From NCBI RefSeq assembly GCF_004349105.1, contig NZ_SMLB01000055.1:1-42934 (forward strand): a DNA stretch of 42,934 nucleotides. Reading direction: 5' to 3'. Position numbers and translations under genes: made by a program. This document shows, piece after piece, positions 5,538 to 21,330 of this stretch. The stretch comes from Jiangella aurantiaca. Lineage in GTDB: Bacteria; Actinomycetota; Actinomycetes; Jiangellales; Jiangellaceae. Under the pieces are notes generated by a model. That model saw only the letters and a list, made by a program, of their open reading frames with translations, did not search any database and was not told where the DNA came from. Within the stretch, counting starts at the first letter, position 1. Each line of letters starts with the position of its first letter.

Positions 5538-8297
5538 ATGAGTTCGCCGGCGGAACGCTACGCGGCAGCACATGAGCGGCAACGCGATCCGTCCCCCCGG
5601 CTGCGGGAGTTCCAGGCCGGGTACGGGTTCCGGCTCGACGAGTTCCAGCTGCGCGCCTGCCGCAGTGTCGAGGCCGGCCGCGGTGTGCTGGTAGCGGCGC
5701 CGACCGGGGCCGGCAAGACGCTGGTCGGCGAGTTCGCCGTGCACCTGGCCCTGGAAGAGGGCCGCAAGTGTTTCTACACCACGCCGATCAAGGCGCTGTC
5801 GAACCAGAAGTACCACGACCTCGTCGAGCGCCACGGCGAGGACAAGGTCGGCCTGCTGACCGGCGACAACACCGTCAACGGCGAGGCGCCCGTGGTCGTC
5901 ATGACCACCGAGGTGCTGCGGAACATGCTCTACGCCGGCTCGACGACGCTGAACGGCCTGAGCTACGTCGTCATGGACGAGGTGCACTACCTCGCCGACC
6001 GGTTCCGCGGCGCCGTCTGGGAGGAAGTGATCATCAACCTCCAGGAGTCGGTGAGCGTCATCTCGCTGTCGGCCACCGTCTCCAACGCCGAGGAGTTCGG
6101 CGACTGGCTCACCACCGTCCGCGGCGACACCGACGTCGTCGTCGAGGAGAAGCGGCCGGTCCCGCTGTGGCAGCACGTCATGATCGGGTCGCGGCTGTAC
6201 GACCTGTTCGGCCAGGGCGAGGCCGACGGCGACGGCCGCCGCGTGGTCAGCCCGGAGCTGGTCCGGGCCGGCCGCGACGACGTCCGCAACTCCCGGCCCG
6301 GCGGACGTACGGGCCGCGGCGGGCGACCGCCACGCCGTCCGCGCGGTACGTACACGCCGGGCCGGGTCGAGGTGCTGGAGAAGCTCGACGCCGCCGGGCT
6401 GCTGCCGGGCATCGTGTTCGTGTTCAGCCGGGCCGGCTGCGAGGCCGCCGTGCAGCAGTGCCTGAGCGCCGGCGTGCGGCTGACGTCGCCGGACGAGCGG
6501 CAGGAGATCCGGGCGCTGGTCGAGGAGCGCACCGCCGGCATCCCCGAGGGCGACCTGCACGTTCTCGGCTACCACGAGTGGGCCGAGGGCCTGGAGCGCG
6601 GCATCGCGGCCCACCACGCGGGCATGCTGCCGACGTTCAAGGAGGTCGTCGAGGAGCTGTTCGTCCGCGGGCTGATCCGGGCCGTCTTCGCCACCGAGAC
6701 GCTGGCGCTGGGCATCAACATGCCGGCGCGCACCGTCGTGCTGGAGCGGCTGGTCAAGTGGAACGGCGAGACCCACGCCGACGTCACGCCGGGGGAGTAC
6801 ACCCAGCTCACCGGCCGGGCCGGGCGGCGCGGCATCGACATCGAGGGGCACGCCGTCGTGCTGTGGCAGCCCGGGTTCGACCCCACGGCGGTCGCCGGAC
6901 TGGCCTCGACCCGCACGTTCCCGCTGCGCTCGTCCTTCCGGCCGTCGTACAACATGGCCGTCAACCTGGTCGGACGGGTCGGGCGCGGCTCCGCGCGGGA
7001 GATCTTGGAGTCGTCGTTCGCCCAGTTCCAGGCCGACCGCGCGGTCGTCGGCCTCGCCCGCCAGCTGCGCCGGGCCGAGGAGGCGCTCGATGGCTACCGC
7101 GAGGCGATGACCTGCGACCAGGGCGACTTCGAGGAGTACGCCCGGCTGCGCCAGGCGATCAAGGACCGTGAGACCCAGCTGGCCCGCGAGGGCACGGCGC
7201 AGCGCCGGGCGGCGTCCCAGGCGTCGCTGGAGAGGCTGCGGCCGGGCGACGTGATCCGGGTGCCGACCGGCAAGTTCGCCGGGCTGGCGGTCGTGCTCGA
7301 TCCCGGCATGCCCGGCGGCGGGCCGCACGGCGGCGACGGCCCCCGCCCGACGGTGCTCACCGAGGGCCGGCAGGTGCGCCGGCTGTCGCTGATCGACTTC
7401 CCGAGCGCGGTCGAGCCGCTGGCGAAGGTGCGCATCCCGCGCTCGTTCAACCCGCGGGTCCCGGCGTCGCGGCGCGACCTCGCGGCGTCGCTGCGGGCGA
7501 AGGCGCCCGACGACGGCGGCCGCCAGTACCACGGCCGCCGGCGCGGCCGGTCCGCGGCGGCCGACGACGAGGAACTGGCCCGGCTGCGCCGGCAGCTGCG
7601 CGACCACCCGTGCCACCGCTGCCCGGACCGCGAGGAGCACGCCCGCTGGGCCGAGCGCTGGCTGCGGCTGCGGCGCGAGGCCGACCAGCTGCAGCGCCGC
7701 GTCGAGTCGCGCACCAACACCGTCGCCCGGCAGTTCGACCGCGTCTGCCGGGTGCTCGAGGATCTCGACTACCTGTCCGGCGACGACGTCACGCCGTCCG
7801 GCCGGCGGCTGGCCCGGCTCTACGGCGAGCTGGACCTGCTGGCCGCCGAGTGCATCCGCCGCGACGTGTGGGCCGGGTTGGACCCGGCCGAGCTGGCCGC
7901 CGCCGTCGCCGCGCTCACGTACGAGTCGCGGCAGCCCGACGACGCCGTCCCGCCGCGGCTGCCGCCGGGCCGGGTCCGCGACGTGCTGGCTGAGATGGTG
8001 CGGCTGTGGGGCGACCTCGACCACGTCGAGTCCACCCACCGGCTGGACTTCCTGCGCGAGCCCGACCTCGGGTTCACCCACGCCGCCTGGCGCTGGGCCA
8101 GCGGCCACCAGCTCGACTCCGTGCTGCGCGACGCCGACCTCGCCGCCGGCGACTTCGTCCGGGCCGTCCGGCAGCTGCTGGACCTGCTCGACCAGATCGC
8201 CGACGCCGCGTCCGGCACGCCGCTGCGCGAGACCGCGCGGCTGGCGGCGGGGGCGCTGCGGCGCGGCGTGGTGGCGTACGCGACGCTGTCGGCGTGA
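5538..8297 (+). CDS. helY: HelY, Ski2/Mtr4-like DEAD/DEAH-box helicase
   Basis: HelY is a large superfamily 2 helicase related to eukaryotic Ski2 and Mtr4, presumed to unwind RNA or DNA in the cytoplasm; its substrate is not firmly known. The 919-residue product carries Walker A APTGAGKT (54-61), DEVH (147-150), SAT (178-180), and QLTGRAGRRGID near 425 (motif VI). A basic Gly/Arg linker at about 250-272 interrupts the helicase core (GGRTGRGGRPPRRPRG), and a C-terminal DSHCT region follows. A second basic linker lies near 655. The ATG is 4 bases after the lipid kinase stop. This order after tatC matches many actinobacterial genomes. Its GTGA stop overlap makes a downstream GTG possible as the next start. 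Confidence 0.92.
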   Translation: MSSPAERYAAAHERQRDPSPRLREFQAGYGFRLDEFQLRACRSVEAGRGVLVAAPTGAGKTLVGEFAVHLALEEGRKCFYTTPIKALSNQKYHDLVERHGEDKVGLLTGDNTVNGEAPVVVMTTEVLRNMLYAGSTTLNGLSYVVMDEVHYLADRFRGAVWEEVIINLQESVSVISLSATVSNAEEFGDWLTTVRGDTDVVVEEKRPVPLWQHVMIGSRLYDLFGQGEADGDGRRVVSPELVRAGRDDVRNSRPGGRTGRGGRPPRRPRGTYTPGRVEVLEKLDAAGLLPGIVFVFSRAGCEAAVQQCLSAGVRLTSPDERQEIRALVEERTAGIPEGDLHVLGYHEWAEGLERGIAAHHAGMLPTFKEVVEELFVRGLIRAVFATETLALGINMPARTVVLERLVKWNGETHADVTPGEYTQLTGRAGRRGIDIEGHAVVLWQPGFDPTAVAGLASTRTFPLRSSFRPSYNMAVNLVGRVGRGSAREILESSFAQFQADRAVVGLARQLRRAEEALDGYREAMTCDQGDFEEYARLRQAIKDRETQLAREGTAQRRAASQASLERLRPGDVIRVPTGKFAGLAVVLDPGMPGGGPHGGDGPRPTVLTEGRQVRRLSLIDFPSAVEPLAKVRIPRSFNPRVPASRRDLAASLRAKAPDDGGRQYHGRRRGRSAAADDEELARLRRQLRDHPCHRCPDREEHARWAERWLRLRREADQLQRRVESRTNTVARQFDRVCRVLEDLDYLSGDDVTPSGRRLARLYGELDLLAAECIRRDVWAGLDPAELAAAVAALTYESRQPDDAVPPRLPPGRVRDVLAEMVRLWGDLDHVESTHRLDFLREPDLGFTHAAWRWASGHQLDSVLRDADLAAGDFVRAVRQLLDLLDQIADAASGTPLRETARLAAGALRRGVVAYATLSA

Positions 8298-8317
8298 CGT
8301 CTTCCGGGGGTGCTGCG

Positions 8318-9331
8318 GTGCGGCTGCTGGTACTCGGCGGGTCGGGGTTCCTGGGGCGCGCTGTCGTCGATGAGGCGGGGGCGCGCGGCTGGGCTGTGAC
8401 GACGTTCAACCGCGGGCTGCGCGGTCCGGCGCCCGAGGGGGCCGAGACGCTGCACGGCGACCGGCTGGACCCGTCGTCGCTGGCCGTGCTGGGCAGCGGC
8501 CGCAAGTGGGACGCCGTCGTCGACACCTGGTCGGGCATCCCGCGGGCGGTCCGCGACAGCGCTCGCGTCCTGCGCGGGCGGGTGGGGACGTACGCGTACG
8601 TGTCCAGCCGGTCGGTGTACGCGCCGCCGGTGCCGCCGGACGCCGACGAGTCCGCGCCGGTGCTGGCCTCGTCGCCCGACGCCGAGGACGGCGACTACGG
8701 CGAGCAGAAGGCCGGCGGCGAGCTGGCCGCGGTGCGCGCGTTCGGTGACGATGCGCTGATCGCCAGGGCCGGGCTGATCCTCGGCCCGCACGAGGACGTC
8801 GGCCGGCTGCCGTGGTGGCTGACCCGGGCCGCGCGCGGCGGGCCGATGCTGGCGCCTGGGCCGGCCGACCTGCCGATCCAGTACATCGACGCGCGCGACC
8901 TCGCCGCCTGGCTGGTGTCGTGTGTCGCGGCCGGGACGGGCGGCGTGTTCAACGCGGTCAGCCGGCCGGGCCACGCGTCGATGGGGGCGCTGCTGGATGC
9001 GGTCGTGGCGGTGACCGGCGGGGCGGCGTCGCTGCGCTGGGTGGACCCGGCGCCGATCCTGGCCGCGGGCGTCGTGCCGTGGACCGACCTGCCGGTCTGG
9101 ATCCCGCCGGAGCACGAGTTCGAGACGTTCGGCCTGCACTCTGCCGACGCGTCGAAGGCCGAGGCGGCGGGACTGCGGCCGCGGCCCGTCGAGGAGACGG
9201 TCGGCGACACGTGGGCCTGGCTGCGCTCGATCGGCGGCTCCGTGCCCCAGCGGCCCGATCGCCCCGCCGTCGGCCTCGACCCGGCCATCGAGGCGGCGAT
9301 TCTCGCGTCCGCGGGCTCACCGTCCCCCTGA
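8318..9331 (+). CDS. NAD-dependent epimerase/dehydratase (extended SDR)
   Basis: This is a Rossmann-fold reductase or epimerase acting on an unknown substrate. The 337-residue product opens with the dinucleotide-binding MRLLVLGGSGFLG, has a DTWSGIP/YAYVSSRSVY segment that supplies the active-site Ser and, further on, DYGEQK as a YxxxK catalytic pair, then PIQYIDARDLAAWLV, typical of extended SDRs. I prefer GTG 8318, 7 bases after a GGGGG run; GTG 8294, overlapping the helY stop as GTGA, would add eight residues and is equally possible. It is the last plus-strand gene of the block, followed by a long hairpin at 9367-9438. Confidence 0.8.
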   Translation: MRLLVLGGSGFLGRAVVDEAGARGWAVTTFNRGLRGPAPEGAETLHGDRLDPSSLAVLGSGRKWDAVVDTWSGIPRAVRDSARVLRGRVGTYAYVSSRSVYAPPVPPDADESAPVLASSPDAEDGDYGEQKAGGELAAVRAFGDDALIARAGLILGPHEDVGRLPWWLTRAARGGPMLAPGPADLPIQYIDARDLAAWLVSCVAAGTGGVFNAVSRPGHASMGALLDAVVAVTGGAASLRWVDPAPILAAGVVPWTDLPVWIPPEHEFETFGLHSADASKAEAAGLRPRPVEETVGDTWAWLRSIGGSVPQRPDRPAVGLDPAIEAAILASAGSPSP

Positions 9332-10623: not shown

Positions 10624-12772
10624 ATGGCGGAATCAACGGGGTTGGAGCGGCTCGGGCGGGGGTGCGCCCGGCACCCGTGGCCGGTCGTCGTGGTGTGGCT
10701 GGTGGTCCTGGCCGGCACCGTGGTCGCCGACCGAGTCTGGGGCGGCACGTACAGCGACGACTTCACCCTGCCGGGCACCGAGTCCGGGCAAGGCAGCGAC
10801 CTGCTGGTCGAGCACGAGGTCGCTGCCAGCGCGTACTCGGCGCGGCTGGTGTTCCAGGACGACGCCGGCCTGGCGGCGCAGTCCGGCGCCGTGGACGAAT
10901 CAGTGGCGAACGTCGAGTCGGTCGAGCACGTGCTGACGGTGTCCGACCTGGTCCCGGCGCCCGGACGGCTCCGTCGGCTACGTCACCGTCCAGTTCGACG
11001 GCAACCCCGGCGCGTTCGGATCGACGTTCGTCGATTCCATGGATACCGCCACCGACCCGGCGCGCGAGGCCGGCGTCGATGTCGAATACACCGGCGCGCT
11101 GGGCCAGGCGGCGGAGCCGGCGCCGGACGACCGGCGCTCCGAGGGCATCGGGATCGCGGTGGCGCTCGTCGTGCTGCTGGTGGCGTTCGGCAGCGTCGTG
11201 GCCGCGGTCCTGCCGATCGCGTCGTCGGTGGTCGGCGTGGTGGCGGCGCTGAGCCTGCTCGGGCTGCTCGCCGCCGGGGTCGACTTCGCGACGGCGTCGC
11301 CGACGCTCGCCGTCATGCTCGGGCTGGGCGTCGGCATCGACTACGCGCTGTTCCTGACGACGCGGCACCGGCAGGGGCTGCTGGACGGCGCCGACCCGGT
11401 TGCGGCCGCCGGGCGGACCGTCGCGAGCAGCGGCCGTTCGGTGCTGATCGCCGCCTGTACGGTCGTCATCGCGCTGGCCGGGCTGTGGGCCACGCGCATC
11501 GGCTTCATCGGCAAGCTCGGGCTGGCCGCCGCGGTGGCCGTCGTCGTCGCCGGGATCGCCGCGGTCACGCTGGTGCCGGCCCTGCTCGGCGCGGCGGGAC
11601 GGCGGATCGACCGGCTGCGGGTCCGGACACCGGTGGCGGAGGAGTCCGGCGACGGTGCCGCGTCGGGCTGGCGGCGGTACGCGCTGGCGCTGGACCGGCA
11701 CCCGTGGCGCTACCTCGTCGCCGGCGTGCTGGTCGCCGGTATCCTCGCGGTGCCGACGCTCTCGCTGCGGCTCGGGCACGTCGACGATGGCGCGTCGGCG
11801 CCGGGCAGCACCACCCGGGCGGCCTACGACGCTATCTCGACCGGCTTCGGCCAGGGCGTGAACGGCCAGTTCACGCTCGCCGTCGACGTCGGTGACGGCG
11901 ACGACGGCGCGACCATCGCGTCGGAGCTGCAGTCCGCCATCGCCGGCACGTCCGGCGTCGCCGCCGTCACCGACTTCGCCCCCAGCCAGGACGGTGCCCT
12001 GCTGGTCGCGACGGTGACGCCGTCAACGCGGCCACAGGACGCCGCGACCGACGACTTGCTGCACACGCTGCGGGACGACACCATCGCCCCGCTGCTGGCG
12101 GGGTCGAACACGTCGGCCTATGTCACCGGCCTGACGGCGGCCCAGCTGGACTTCCGCGACCTGGTGGCCGACCGGCTGCCGGAGATCATCGCGATCGTCG
12201 TCGGCGCGGCGTTCGTCGTGCTGCTGCTGTCGTTCCGCAGCCCGGTGCTCGCGCTCAAGGCGGCGCTGCTCAACCTGCTCTCGATCGCCGCCGCCTACGG
12301 CGTCGTCGTCGCCGTGTTCCAATGGGGCTGGGGGTCGTCGCTGCTTGGCGTGGACCAGCCGGTGCCGATCGAGTCCTACGTCCCGATGATCATGTTCGCG
12401 ATCGTCTTCGGGCTGTCGATGGACTACGAGGTGTTCCTGCTGTCACGAGTCCGGGAGGCGTGGCTGGCGACGGGGGAGAACCACGGCAGCGTCGCGACCG
12501 GGCTGGCGGTGACGGCGCGGGTCATCTCGTCGGCGGCGCTGATCATGATGACCGTCTTCTTCGCGTTCGTGGTCGCCGACGACGTCGTCATCAAGATGCT
12601 GGCGGTCGGACTGGGGTTCAGCGTGTTGATCGACGCCACCGTGATCAGGCTGCTGGTGGTGCCGGCGGCGATGTTCCTGCTCGGGGACCGGTGCTGGTGG
12701 CTGCCTCGCTGGCTGGACCGGGCGCTGCCGCACCTGGAGCCGGAGGCGGACCTCACCCGCTCGGGCCGCTGA
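10624..12772 (+). pseudogene. MMPL family transporter, broken by a single frameshift
   Basis: Together the two reading frames encode a roughly 715-residue RND-type MMPL transporter, which normally exports lipids or hydrophobic compounds. The first frame (from ATG 10624 after a GGGGG run) gives RHPWPVVVVWLVVLAGTVVAD and reads well up to VSDLVPAP. The frame then shifts by one base at the CCC run 10960-10962; the next frame continues as DGSVGYVTVQFDG and stays open to 12772. That second part has the expected membrane helices and the MMPL signatures GVGIDYALFLTTRHR and FGLSMDYEVFLLSRVREAW. Deleting one C would restore a full-length protein. No other decay is seen, so this is either a very recent mutation or a sequencing or assembly error. 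The end overlaps the convergent sortase gene by 20 bases. Confidence 0.82.
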
Positions 12773-13457
12773 CCAGCGTGCCGGTGGCGTACATGCGGTG
12801 CGACGAGCCGAACCGCGGCCAGCACGTGGTGAGCGTGATGCGCTGCTCGGTCGGCTCGGTGTCGCGTGGCTCGCCGGGCACGGGGTCGACCACCCAGACG
12901 TCGCTGATGTCGATGCGGTTGCCGTCGCTGTCGCCGTCGGGGGCGTCGTCGAGCTGGTAGACGTAGGTGCCGTCGGCCATCTCGATCTCGATGGTGTCCC
13001 CGACGCGGAGCTGGGGGAAGTCGGCGAACGGCTCGGCGTGCCCGGAGCGGTGCGCGGCGATGCCGACGTTGCCCAGCTCGCCGGGGTTGGCCGTGTTCGG
13101 GTAGTGGCCGGGGCCGCGGGCGAGGTCGTCGGGCTGCACGCCCTGGACGATGGTGAACTCCCAGTCGTCGCCGAAGCGGGGGATGCGCAGGATGCCGTAC
13201 GCGTCGCCCTCTGCCAGCGCGTCGGGGTCAGGCGCCGGCGCATCCGGCGCGAGCTGCTCCCACTGGGTCCCGAGCTCGTCCTCGAGCGCGTCCTGCGCCC
13301 GCGCCGTCTGGATGCCGGTGCCCCAGAGGATGTAGACGACGAAGAGCAGGACCAGCGCGCCCGCGGTGAGCAGCAGCTCGCCGATGCCTCCGATGACGAC
13401 GGCCCAGGCACTGCGGCGGGGCCGGGTGCTGACGCGCTGCTGCGCGTGTCGTGGCAT
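12753..13457 (-). CDS. Class E sortase
   Basis: Sortases cleave a C-terminal sorting signal on exported proteins and attach them to the cell wall; class E enzymes of high-GC actinobacteria prefer LAXTG. The 234-residue product has an N-terminal membrane anchor (about 17-44, preceded by RPRRSAW), the catalytic His in GIAAHRSGH (H136), Cys in TLTTC (C212) and Arg in HRMYATG (R221). The Asn/Gly-rich GELGNVGIAAHR context is typical of class E. The ATG at 13457 is the family-consistent start. A possible substrate, the LAQTG mini-protein at 20027-20194, lies 7 kb away. The gene is convergent with the MMPL gene. Confidence 0.92.
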   Translation of the reverse strand: MPRHAQQRVSTRPRRSAWAVVIGGIGELLLTAGALVLLFVVYILWGTGIQTARAQDALEDELGTQWEQLAPDAPAPDPDALAEGDAYGILRIPRFGDDWEFTIVQGVQPDDLARGPGHYPNTANPGELGNVGIAAHRSGHAEPFADFPQLRVGDTIEIEMADGTYVYQLDDAPDGDSDGNRIDISDVWVVDPVPGEPRDTEPTEQRITLTTCWPRFGSSHRMYATGTLVSGPSG

Positions 13458-20026: not shown

Positions 20027-20194
20027 TCACCTGGCCGCCGCCCGGCGCGGGATGATCCGCATGATCGCTGTGCCAATGGCCAGTAGGGCGAAGCCTGCCA
20101 GGATCGCCCAGACCGGGCTCGTCCCCGTCTGAGCCAGGCACCCGGCACCGCCGGCGCCCCCGGCGCCCACCACGCACTTGTCGTACATCGTCAC
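20027..20194 (-). CDS. Mini-protein with LAQTG cell-wall sorting signal
   Basis: This 55-residue ORF has all parts of a class E sortase sorting signal: LAQTG at residues 20-24, a hydrophobic segment (about 28-46, VWAILAGFALLAIGTAIM) and a basic tail (RIIPRRAAAR). Before the motif there are only 19 residues, MYDKC plus a Gly/Ala repeat ending AGGAGGAGC, with no signal peptide, so it cannot be a normal exported surface protein. I chose GTG 20194 because its GTGA overlaps the glycosyltransferase stop and AGAGG lies 5 bases upstream; ATG 20197 or 20188 are alternatives. The Cys residues at 7 and 19 are notable. It is translated with the upstream membrane glycosyltransferase and is presumably its partner. 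The cognate sortase may be the gene at 12753-13457. Confidence 0.75.
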   Translation of the reverse strand: MTMYDKCVVGAGGAGGAGCLAQTGTSPVWAILAGFALLAIGTAIMRIIPRRAAAR

Positions 20195-21330
20195 CATTTC
20201 CTCTCGCGGTTCAGGATCACATCGGCGTAGGCCTTGGCGTGTACGAGCTGGAGGAAGATGTCATACACCAGCTCGAACATCGTGGCGGCCGCCACCATGT
20301 GCCGCCAGCCTCGGTCGCTGACGGTGACGACGCGCTCCAGGATGAAGACGCCCGTGACCGCCATCCAGACCGGCTGGAGGCTCACACCCCCGTCGACTGC
20401 GATGGCGACGGCGATGGAAGTCAGGTAGATGAACGTGACCGCGACACCGGCCATCGTCAGGAGTTGCCGGCCCCAGTAGCGCCACGTCACCGGGGTCACG
20501 CCGTACTGGAAGCAGTTCTCCACCGCGCCGCGCTTCCAGCGCAGCCGCTGTTTCCACAGGTCACGCCACGTCGGCATGACCTCGGTCACGAGAGTGCATT
20601 CCTTCGGGCTGAGCACCTCATAGCCCAGGTGGAGAAGTGCGAACGTGAGCTCGTTGTCTTCGGTCAGGACGGTGGTGTCATAGATGCCACCCCGCCCGTC
20701 ACCGGCCGGCACCGTGCGATCGAGCCTCGCCCGGGAGAGGTGCTTGAGCGTGCCGGCCCGCATCATCGCGGCGGTACCGGTCACGACCAGGCACTTCCCG
20801 CCCAGGCGGCGCACGTCCCTTGCGTACCTGGCGTACTCGTTGCGCTGGAGGTACCCGACCAGCCCGGCACCAGGCTCGCCCTGGAAGACACCACCGACGG
20901 CACCGAGCTTGGGACGTGCGTCCATGTACTCGAGCGCCGCCTCGATGAAGTGCTCACCGAGCTGGCTGTCAGCATCCTGGACGAGCACGAGGTCCTGATC
21001 GCGCAGCCTCGGCAGGATGTCCGCGAGAATCTGGTTGAGTGCGCCGGCCTTCTTGTCGGTGTTCCCCTCTGTCACGGCGACCTCGGCACGCCACGCGGCC
21101 GCGACCTTCGCGGTGTCGTCGGTGCAGTTGTCGGCGATGACGATGACGCTGTCCGGTCGACGGGTCTGGCGGCTGAGCGCGGCCAATGCCGCACCGATGC
21201 CTGCTTCCTCGTTGTGTGCCGGAATGAGCACGGTGATCCGTACGTCCGGCACACCGGCATAGCGCAGGGCATTGCCCACGGCGATGAATTCCCCCCGAGA
21301 ATGCGGGCCGGATGCCGTGCTGGAATGCAC
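20191..21330 (-). CDS. Processive family 2 glycosyltransferase, membrane
   Basis: This resembles hyaluronan/cellulose-synthase-like GT2 enzymes, which build a polysaccharide from a nucleotide sugar and move it across the membrane. From GTG 21330 (379 residues): VLIPAHNEE, then the acidic motifs QDADS (118-122) and TEDNE (223-227) and the QRLRW motif (261-265) expected for a processive enzyme. Three C-terminal membrane helices follow (about 290-312, 318-337, 345-363); no N-terminal helix is seen. GTG 21279, with GGGGGGAA 9 bases upstream and starting just before VPDVRITVLIPA, is a better start by ribosome site and would remove 17 residues and place a large hairpin in the leader. The sugar and product are unknown. 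Its codons are less GC-rich than its neighbours', which hints at transfer. Confidence 0.88.
   Translation of the reverse strand: MHSSTASGPHSRGEFIAVGNALRYAGVPDVRITVLIPAHNEEAGIGAALAALSRQTRRPDSVIVIADNCTDDTAKVAAAWRAEVAVTEGNTDKKAGALNQILADILPRLRDQDLVLVQDADSQLGEHFIEAALEYMDARPKLGAVGGVFQGEPGAGLVGYLQRNEYARYARDVRRLGGKCLVVTGTAAMMRAGTLKHLSRARLDRTVPAGDGRGGIYDTTVLTEDNELTFALLHLGYEVLSPKECTLVTEVMPTWRDLWKQRLRWKRGAVENCFQYGVTPVTWRYWGRQLLTMAGVAVTFIYLTSIAVAIAVDGGVSLQPVWMAVTGVFILERVVTVSDRGWRHMVAAATMFELVYDIFLQLVHAKAYADVILNRERKW

Follow-up and report, generated by a model that had tools for sequence, protein, structure and literature searches.

A membrane glycosyltransferase gene and the small sortase-motif protein encoded behind it

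Why should a gene for a membrane glycosyltransferase (GT2) be followed directly by one for a protein of some fifty residues that carries a sortase motif, a hydrophobic helix and a basic tail? The question is raised by the window, by which we mean the whole stretch of 42,934 nucleotides of Jiangella aurantiaca that was analysed. An earlier note on this DNA had reported a GT2 gene (20191-21330, minus strand) that overlaps, at GTGA, a small open reading frame (20027-20197, minus strand), and had taken the product of the latter for a bare sorting signal. Both ORFs, the overlap included, were found again. The sortase literature that we searched has large surface proteins as its subject, whereas the protein in question, here called the mini-protein, has about 50-60 residues, occurs in several classes of one phylum, is nearly inseparable from a membrane glycosyltransferase, and is probably a sortase substrate. 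The evidence suggests an unrecognised small system that ties the GT2, or its product, to the cell wall.

The glycosyltransferase and the mini-protein

The GT2 ORF encodes 379 amino acids from a GTG start, matches Pfam Glyco_tranf_2_3 and relatives, and contains the motifs DAD, TEDNE and QRLRW, which correspond to the DxD, TED and QxxRW of processive GT2s. In an alignment of 43 rows, D118-A-D120, T222-E-D224, Q260, R263 and W264 are invariant (that is, Q-R-x-R-W save for the x). The AlphaFold2 model (mean pLDDT 87.7) starts with 25 disordered residues, lacks N-terminal helices, and has long C-terminal helices at residues 282-312, 319-335 and 353-371, which we take as about three membrane helices. 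Among the folds listed by Foldseek, to which the structural comparison was limited, the best matching solved structures are Chlorella virus HAS (CvHAS; Z 26.6, rmsd 3.3, 329 residues, model 20-372 on HAS 73-451), Xenopus HAS1 (XlHAS1), BcsA (Z 23.9) and chitin synthases. CvHAS, XlHAS1 and BcsA share their fold with the model over the catalytic domain, the interface and part of the membrane helices; they differ from the window GT2 in sequence (12-17% identity), and the HAS residues before 73 are unmatched. With respect to a full channel, it should be noted that the N-terminal helix pair of HAS has no counterpart in the model, and that the archaeal membrane mannosyltransferase PcManGT, which is not a HAS, also matches, close behind the HAS and BcsA structures (Z 23.6, 291 residues). 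Since this match is nearly as good, the fold of the GT2 is no proof of a polymer product. Motifs and predicted fold together make it likely that the enzyme is processive; the fold class is all that the structural comparison gives, and a product polymer cannot be named from it.

Where the mini-protein starts needed some correction. The GTG overlap with the GT2 gene is possible (alternative starts lie at 20194, GTG, and 20197, ATG), but the homologues share an ATG-TAC that lies two codons further inside, at 20188 in the window. We therefore read the gene as 20027-20188 (minus strand, 53 amino acids plus stop), beginning 2 nt past the GT2 stop with AGAGGAA upstream, as read by eye. Its homologues were collected in a scan with the GT2 alignment, which gave 544 confirmed candidates, and the best 80 of these are the named loci of this text; when the first start codon with a Tyr codon next to it is chosen, Met-Tyr is read in 77 of these 80, and the start lies 0-17 nt past the GT2 stop in 66 of them. 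Read in this way, the protein is MYDKCVVGAGGAGGAGC-LAQTG-helix-RIIPRRAAAR, with 17 residues ahead of LAQTG. All parts lie on the minus strand: the N-terminal Met-Tyr (20183-20188); LAQTG as residues 18-22 (20123-20137), identified by sequence, profile match and alignment; a hydrophobic helix of approximate boundaries at about residues 24-43 (20060-20119), with W27, F33 and A41; and the basic tail RIIPRRAAAR (20030-20059), which contains an invariant proline.

Conservation was read from 93 aligned mini-proteins, namely 77 of the 80 named ones plus 16 others, the three named ones without a clear Met-Tyr start having been dropped. A41 and P47 are conserved in all 93, Y2 in 92 (because of the three dropped sequences, 92/96 is the fair figure), W27 in 87, R44 in 86 and L[AP]xTG in 76, so that the helix and the Met-Tyr start are conserved at least as well as the sortase motif. 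No charged residue precedes the motif in 51 of the 76 motif-bearing proteins, and 85 of the 93 have 3-5 K/R within their last 16 residues. The positive-inside rule is an established basis for assigning topology, and by this rule the N-terminus would lie outside and the C-terminus inside. The 17 residues ahead of the motif, as read by eye, are low in charge and show no signal peptide; the stub is short and of low complexity, and no other domain is present. Letter-by-letter conservation is not expected in ordinary sorting helices; as the helix of the mini-protein does show it, this helix probably makes a specific contact. Finally, the near-neutral substitution that the earlier note had thought of as evidence against its idea was not observed: pooled pN/pS is 0.244 over 28 disjoint gene pairs, and 285 pairs that are not independent of each other give a median dN/dS of 0.14. 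The mini-protein is under purifying selection.

The pair across genomes, with and without the motif

Forty genomes, that of the window among them, were searched for the GT2; 12 of them contain 13 matches with an E value of 1e-20 or lower, and a mini gene is next door in 13/13 (window included). Conservation beside the GT2 in relatives, on which the earlier note had made its proposal depend, is thus found, with one of the 13 partly masked (in G020, an N-masked stretch leaves the first residues alone legible) and one, in G037, bearing an altered LAXTG motif. The coupling of the two genes extends further, as in 80/80 named loci (again the best 80 of 544) the best match to the mini-protein comes immediately after the GT2 and in the same orientation. 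These loci come from Jiangella, Micromonospora, Streptomyces, Arthrobacter and its kin, Microbacterium, Geodermatophilaceae, Amycolatopsis, Pseudonocardia, Streptosporangiales-type genera and others. The GT2 itself is patchy: 48 of the 393 genomes of a class sample gave 54 matches at E 1e-45 or better. A recognisable partner is present at 51 of the 54, a count that takes in the window and the partly masked G020, and in which the partners of the group described below as clade II were recognised by pattern and by eye. The exceptions are L227, without a partner, and L230 and L232, where the GT2s are more distant (188-192 bits) and the small membrane ORFs behind them, each with one helix, are of unproven kinship. 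Among the 246 genomes of a phylum sample, 12 had a GT2 match. Eight of the loci were new, all of them outside the class. Seven of these show a partner, which has L[AP]xTG and a Met-Tyr start at six loci (L239 and L240 being near-copies) and is of the clade II kind at one; at L243, the remaining locus, the GT2 match is truncated. We are confident, on this record, that the GT2 and the mini-protein form a functional pair.

An ORF this short, lying directly behind a stop codon, might be suspected of being spurious or a translational tail of the GT2. This suspicion we regard as ruled out, for practical purposes, by the 80/80 pairing, the Met-Tyr start, the conserved helix and proline and the pN/pS of 0.24; moreover, all three reading-frame relations to the GT2 are seen (33, 25 and 22 of the same 80 loci).

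In two genomes (G010 and G003), the same chromosomal slot has the neighbours AsnC, an aminotransferase, an FAD oxidase and a peptidase, in G010 also an amidase, and a class E sortase at a distance of 6-8 kb; the GT2 in this slot is 50-54% identical and is accompanied by a different mini-protein of its own. The simplest reading is that GT2 and mini gene are exchanged together as a unit. Neighbouring ORFs of at least 120 aa within about 5-6 kb were clustered after a composition filter. The GT2 accounts for 78 loci in 10 families. Two clusters that lie over the GT2 on the opposite strand (8 and 7 families) were taken as antisense ORFs; of the other clusters, the widest reach 3 families (40 loci) and 4 families (13 loci). 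As the others span at most 3-4 families, no third gene recurs widely beside the pair, and the idea that the pair is a piece of a larger exopolysaccharide operon was dropped, with rarer partners being possible. As a separate observation, two long open frames, of 1821 and 1747 aa from stop to stop (L022, 8039-13504, minus strand; L026, 906-6149, plus strand), end in LADTG/LPDTG sorting signals a few kb from a GT2-mini pair.

In several lineages the pair is retained where LAXTG is gone. One such group is a second tier of GT2s (425-459 bits), referred to here as clade II, which have some 120 or more extra N-terminal residues, measured from stop to stop, with two hydrophobic segments as read by eye. 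At 22 loci (L205-L212, L214-L226 and L228) the ORF behind such a GT2 has a similar helix, AAFVAINTxxYVxLAxAKxLP, and no LAXTG. The partner is short (about 70-105 aa) with an RRSETRSIHPD-like tail in 14 of the 22; this tail is absent in the other 8 (L218-L222 and L224-L226), six of which (L219-L222, L224 and L225) extend into a second hydrophobic stretch. Scans of two clade II partners gave no credible family in NCBIfam or Pfam. Profile-profile comparison with the mini-protein gave a weak match (P 1.2e-4, prob 55), and with the mini HMM eight single clade II partners were not separable from shuffles. Jiangellaceae have an intermediate form of the partner, GLNTIGYLLLATRNLLPARR. Position, this intermediate form and the profile match make it likely that the clade II partner is homologous to the mini-protein.

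A GT2 tree of 84 rows, with 21 of the 22 clade II loci, made by a quick method and containing several long branches, places LAXTG rows at several basal positions and the clade II loci in one clade (support 94). The 14 motif-less rows, L098 with LAYSG included, require 6 changes on this tree, at least 5 of them on starred branches. With basal LAXTG rows and repeated changes, LAXTG looks ancestral and repeatedly lost while the partner was kept, and the tree suggests that most lineages have retained it. The view that LAXTG is the essential part must be rejected, as whole clades keep the mini-protein without it. Since the helix and the Met-Tyr start outlast the motif, the mini-protein is more than a bare sorting signal, and in this respect the description in the earlier note fell short.

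Sortases near the pair and in the genomes

Class E sortases and their recognition of LAXTG are already known (PMC5148588). The class E sortase (SrtE) that had been noted at 12753-13457 (minus strand) is borne out by model NF033747 (213.1 bits, cut-off 160); it lies about 6.6 kb from the mini gene and is a candidate processing enzyme. Other genomes of the genus have retained its neighbourhood, and the own genome (G000) has three class E sortase matches. The mini-protein shares with class E substrates a C-terminal LAXTG, a hydrophobic helix and a basic tail in a genome with a class E sortase, and the LPXTG anchor model TIGR01167 recognises it (18.4 bits, cut-off 15.9, E 0.0025).

The connection with sortases that the earlier note had drawn gains weight from several lineages in which a sortase gene adjoins the pair. 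Three genomes have an operon of GT2, mini gene and class E or class E-like sortase: Citricoccus sp. CH26A (L110), with a class E sortase of 243.6 bits, and G081 and G379, which belong to one genus. In G081 (L177), the GT2 (7244-8401) is followed by a mini gene (8405-8575, LAMTG) and a class E-like sortase that ends at 9159 and scores 140 bits, under the cut-off of 160; this genome has LAXTG mini-proteins, no SrtE over the cut-off, and only this class E-like sortase beside a mini gene. The mini-protein of the G379 operon (L179) has LAATG. At the Streptosporangiales-type loci, a sortase adjoins the pair at 8/8 with flanks read, according to our own profile (two each in Nonomuraea and Microbispora, and one each in Microtetraspora, Planotetraspora, Actinomadura and G037). 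It is divergent upstream in six cases, directly downstream in one and upstream on the same strand in one, and the three that were scanned with NCBIfam are all class F over the cut-off (209, 214 and 207 bits). At these eight loci (L121, L128-L130, L132, L124, L134 and L019) the mini-protein has [ST]APFxG, ASPLFG or ASPWLG, that is, xPxxG in place of LAXTG, and we infer that [AS]PxxG is a candidate class F sorting signal. Outside the Streptosporangiales-type loci sortase adjacency is rare: among the other 73 named loci, some with short flanks, a sortase within about 2 kb was seen only at L110. Based on these arrangements, the sortase link of the GT2-mini pair is supported. At two further loci, GT2-mini pairs with LALTG or LAMSG have a divergent class F-like sortase immediately upstream (L178, 6693-7610, and L180, 7000-8295, both minus strand); these score 66 and 74.5 bits, under the cut-off of 166.

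The co-occurrence of the pair with class E sortases, which the earlier note had proposed to test, is suggestive in the raw counts. SrtE is found over the cut-off in 44 of the 49 genomes searched, which were taken from 50 of the 80 named loci, the class-wide base rate being 256 of 393 genomes. It is present in 35/35 genomes whose mini-protein has L[AP]xTG (L111, with a LAVTG farther from the helix, being counted as motif-bearing) versus 7/12 motif-less ones (Fisher 5e-4, ancestry ignored); the table omits two LAYSG cases, both with SrtE. In the class sample, at E 1e-40, SrtE is present in 17/18 genomes with a LAXTG mini-protein versus 12/22 with a clade II-tier GT2, ancestry again ignored; the latter count includes the partnerless G260, without which it is 11/21, G326 stands on both sides, and G020 (masked), G048, G037, G098, G104, G272 and G298 are omitted. 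Five of these, G037, G098, G104, G272 and G298, are the class-sample genomes with a motif-less clade I mini-protein, and 5/5 have kept SrtE, which, like the lack of an over-cut-off SrtE in G081, speaks against the association; two of the five are already among the 12 motif-less genomes. However, an independent-pairs test of motif and sortase on the tree offered 5 pairs (median p 1) and is powerless, so the suggestive tables do not carry a claim of correlated evolution. A scan for any sortase found at least one in each of 10 genomes. In Actinomycetospora and Pseudonocardia (L122 and L136), SLPFLEMSP replaces LAXTG in genomes without an over-cut-off class E sortase, and no sortase was found within the flanks read there; in Arsenicicoccus (L105 and L107), LTYAG replaces LAXTG despite the presence of SrtE. 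For the lineages that have LAXTG, we think it very probable that the mini-protein is a sortase substrate.

Possible role of the pair and its relation to known systems

The reading that we prefer, with a probability of roughly 60%, is a two-gene glycan cassette in which the GT2 has a dedicated one-helix partner whose outer stub is usually a sortase substrate, coupling the enzyme or its product to the wall. The GT2, with the fold of HAS and cellulose synthases minus the HAS N-terminal helix pair, would probably make and export a polysaccharide. The mini-protein, with its N-terminal stub outside and its basic tail inside, would dock to the GT2 through its conserved helix. In most lineages a class E sortase would cleave between T and G of the L[AP]xTG on the outer stub, and in Streptosporangiales-type genomes the neighbouring class F sortase would cleave the stub; the short, MYNN-tipped stub would then be transferred to a wall amine. 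Processivity, product, topology, helix docking, cleavage, wall acceptor and glycan link are the elements of this scheme that we infer. The most likely role for the mini-protein would be to tether the GT2 product, or to hand it over, to the wall, and we put forward a part in tethering the glycan tentatively, at somewhat less than even odds. If the mini-protein is a sortase substrate, sortases would gain a direct place in glycan biology, [AS]PxxG would stand as a candidate class F signal, and there would be a two- or three-gene system of a size that can be rebuilt and tested.

Three other accounts have to be weighed against this one. The mini-protein may be a subunit only, which activates the GT2 or completes its channel, any sortase cleavage being a matter of regulation or turnover and not of anchoring. 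IcaD and PgaD are such subunits for their synthases, the helix and the pairing outlast the motif, and the GT2 model lacks the HAS helix pair; we also count in favour of this account that clade II GT2s, with their extra N-terminal hydrophobic segments, still keep the partner. Against it, LAXTG is, as the tree suggests, ancestral and kept in most lineages, sortase genes adjoin the pair in several lineages, and the Met-Tyr start is near-invariant though far from the helix; we hold it to be a possible but doubtful alternative. Another account, in which the mini-protein is a bare sorting signal that does no more than coat the wall surface with its stub peptide, with co-expression as the only link to the GT2, fits the short, low-complexity stub without any other domain and the TIGR01167 match over cut-off (18.4 of 15.9 bits); it is difficult to reconcile with a pair that is exchanged as a unit at one slot, with a helix conserved in sequence and with a motif that can be lost while the protein stays, and we consider it improbable.

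The third account goes beyond the cassette that we prefer, and we judge it unlikely: a protein-primed, sortase-anchored polysaccharide, for which Tyr2 (or the following Asn) would be the chain acceptor of the GT2, the glycan-bearing stub would emerge through the enzyme, and a sortase would join it via LAXT to peptidoglycan. If true, the reducing end of the polymer would be attached to the wall with neither an LCP enzyme nor a lipid carrier involved, and the same design could be completed interchangeably by a class E sortase, a class F sortase or an exosortase.

Returning to the two-gene cassette, several known systems share parts of it. IcaD and PgaD are small membrane partners of the PNAG synthases IcaA and PgaC, which thus likewise combine a GT2 with a small membrane protein; the mini-protein differs from them in having one helix and usually a sortase motif, and the PgaC/IcaA model TIGR03937 gives the window GT2 75 of 422.3 bits. 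The chaplins ChpA-C, and SspA and CwpA/B of Actinoplanes missouriensis, resemble the mini-protein in having LAXTG, a helix, a basic tail and a class E sortase (PMC5148588, PMC13251363), and seven further SrtE substrate candidates of 219-762 aa have been named and tested in A. missouriensis (PMC13251363). Unlike those candidates, the mini-protein has no exported body beyond its approximately 17 residues and is tied to a GT2. In Actinomyces oris LcpA/GspA, an LCP phosphotransferase acts on a surface protein, while the GT2-mini pair is without a widely recurring third gene. The presence of exosortases with polysaccharide genes is also known, and PEP-CTERM/EpsH, XrtG and XrtP likewise combine polysaccharide genes and sorting-signal proteins with a membrane enzyme that resembles a transpeptidase (PMC1569441). 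The window pair differs from these in that the sortase is a true one, the target has 53 aa and there is one GT2 only, and the exosortase-associated GT2 models score low on it (TIGR03111 25.5 of 363.95 bits, NF053846 31.5 of 520 bits). Judged by titles and abstract openings, the GT2-mini pairing is not described in the open-access literature among the matches listed. Sortase-substrate systems as such are known; here the partner of a GT2 would be the substrate.

Concerning families of small proteins, a match of the mini-protein to RseC_MucC in Pfam (E 0.087, under the cut-off) was taken as chance. NF058583 (LAXTG_small_WW, 'LAXTG motif-containing small protein') is a 54-position model with LAXTG and a helix that is loosely related to the mini-protein; it is not the family to which the mini-protein belongs, as the window protein reaches 26.7 bits (E 3.2e-6) and nine further partners at most 37.5 bits, with a cut-off of 65, and no match over the cut-off was found in 197 class genomes. 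Its three best matches in the class sample (L137-L139; L181-L183 when larger stretches are taken) are MY...LAXTG mini-proteins. Behind each come an exosortase-family protein, which exceeds the TIGR04178 cut-off in 3/3 and is nearest to XrtR, and a different GT2, whose nearest model is NF053846 (276 and 282 of 520 bits for the two scanned, the third having been found by tblastn). That the design recurs with a different finishing enzyme strengthens the view that a tiny target, a GT2 and a transpeptidase belong together. The three loci lie in G056, G001 and G007, respectively, the last two of which belong to the window's own genus.
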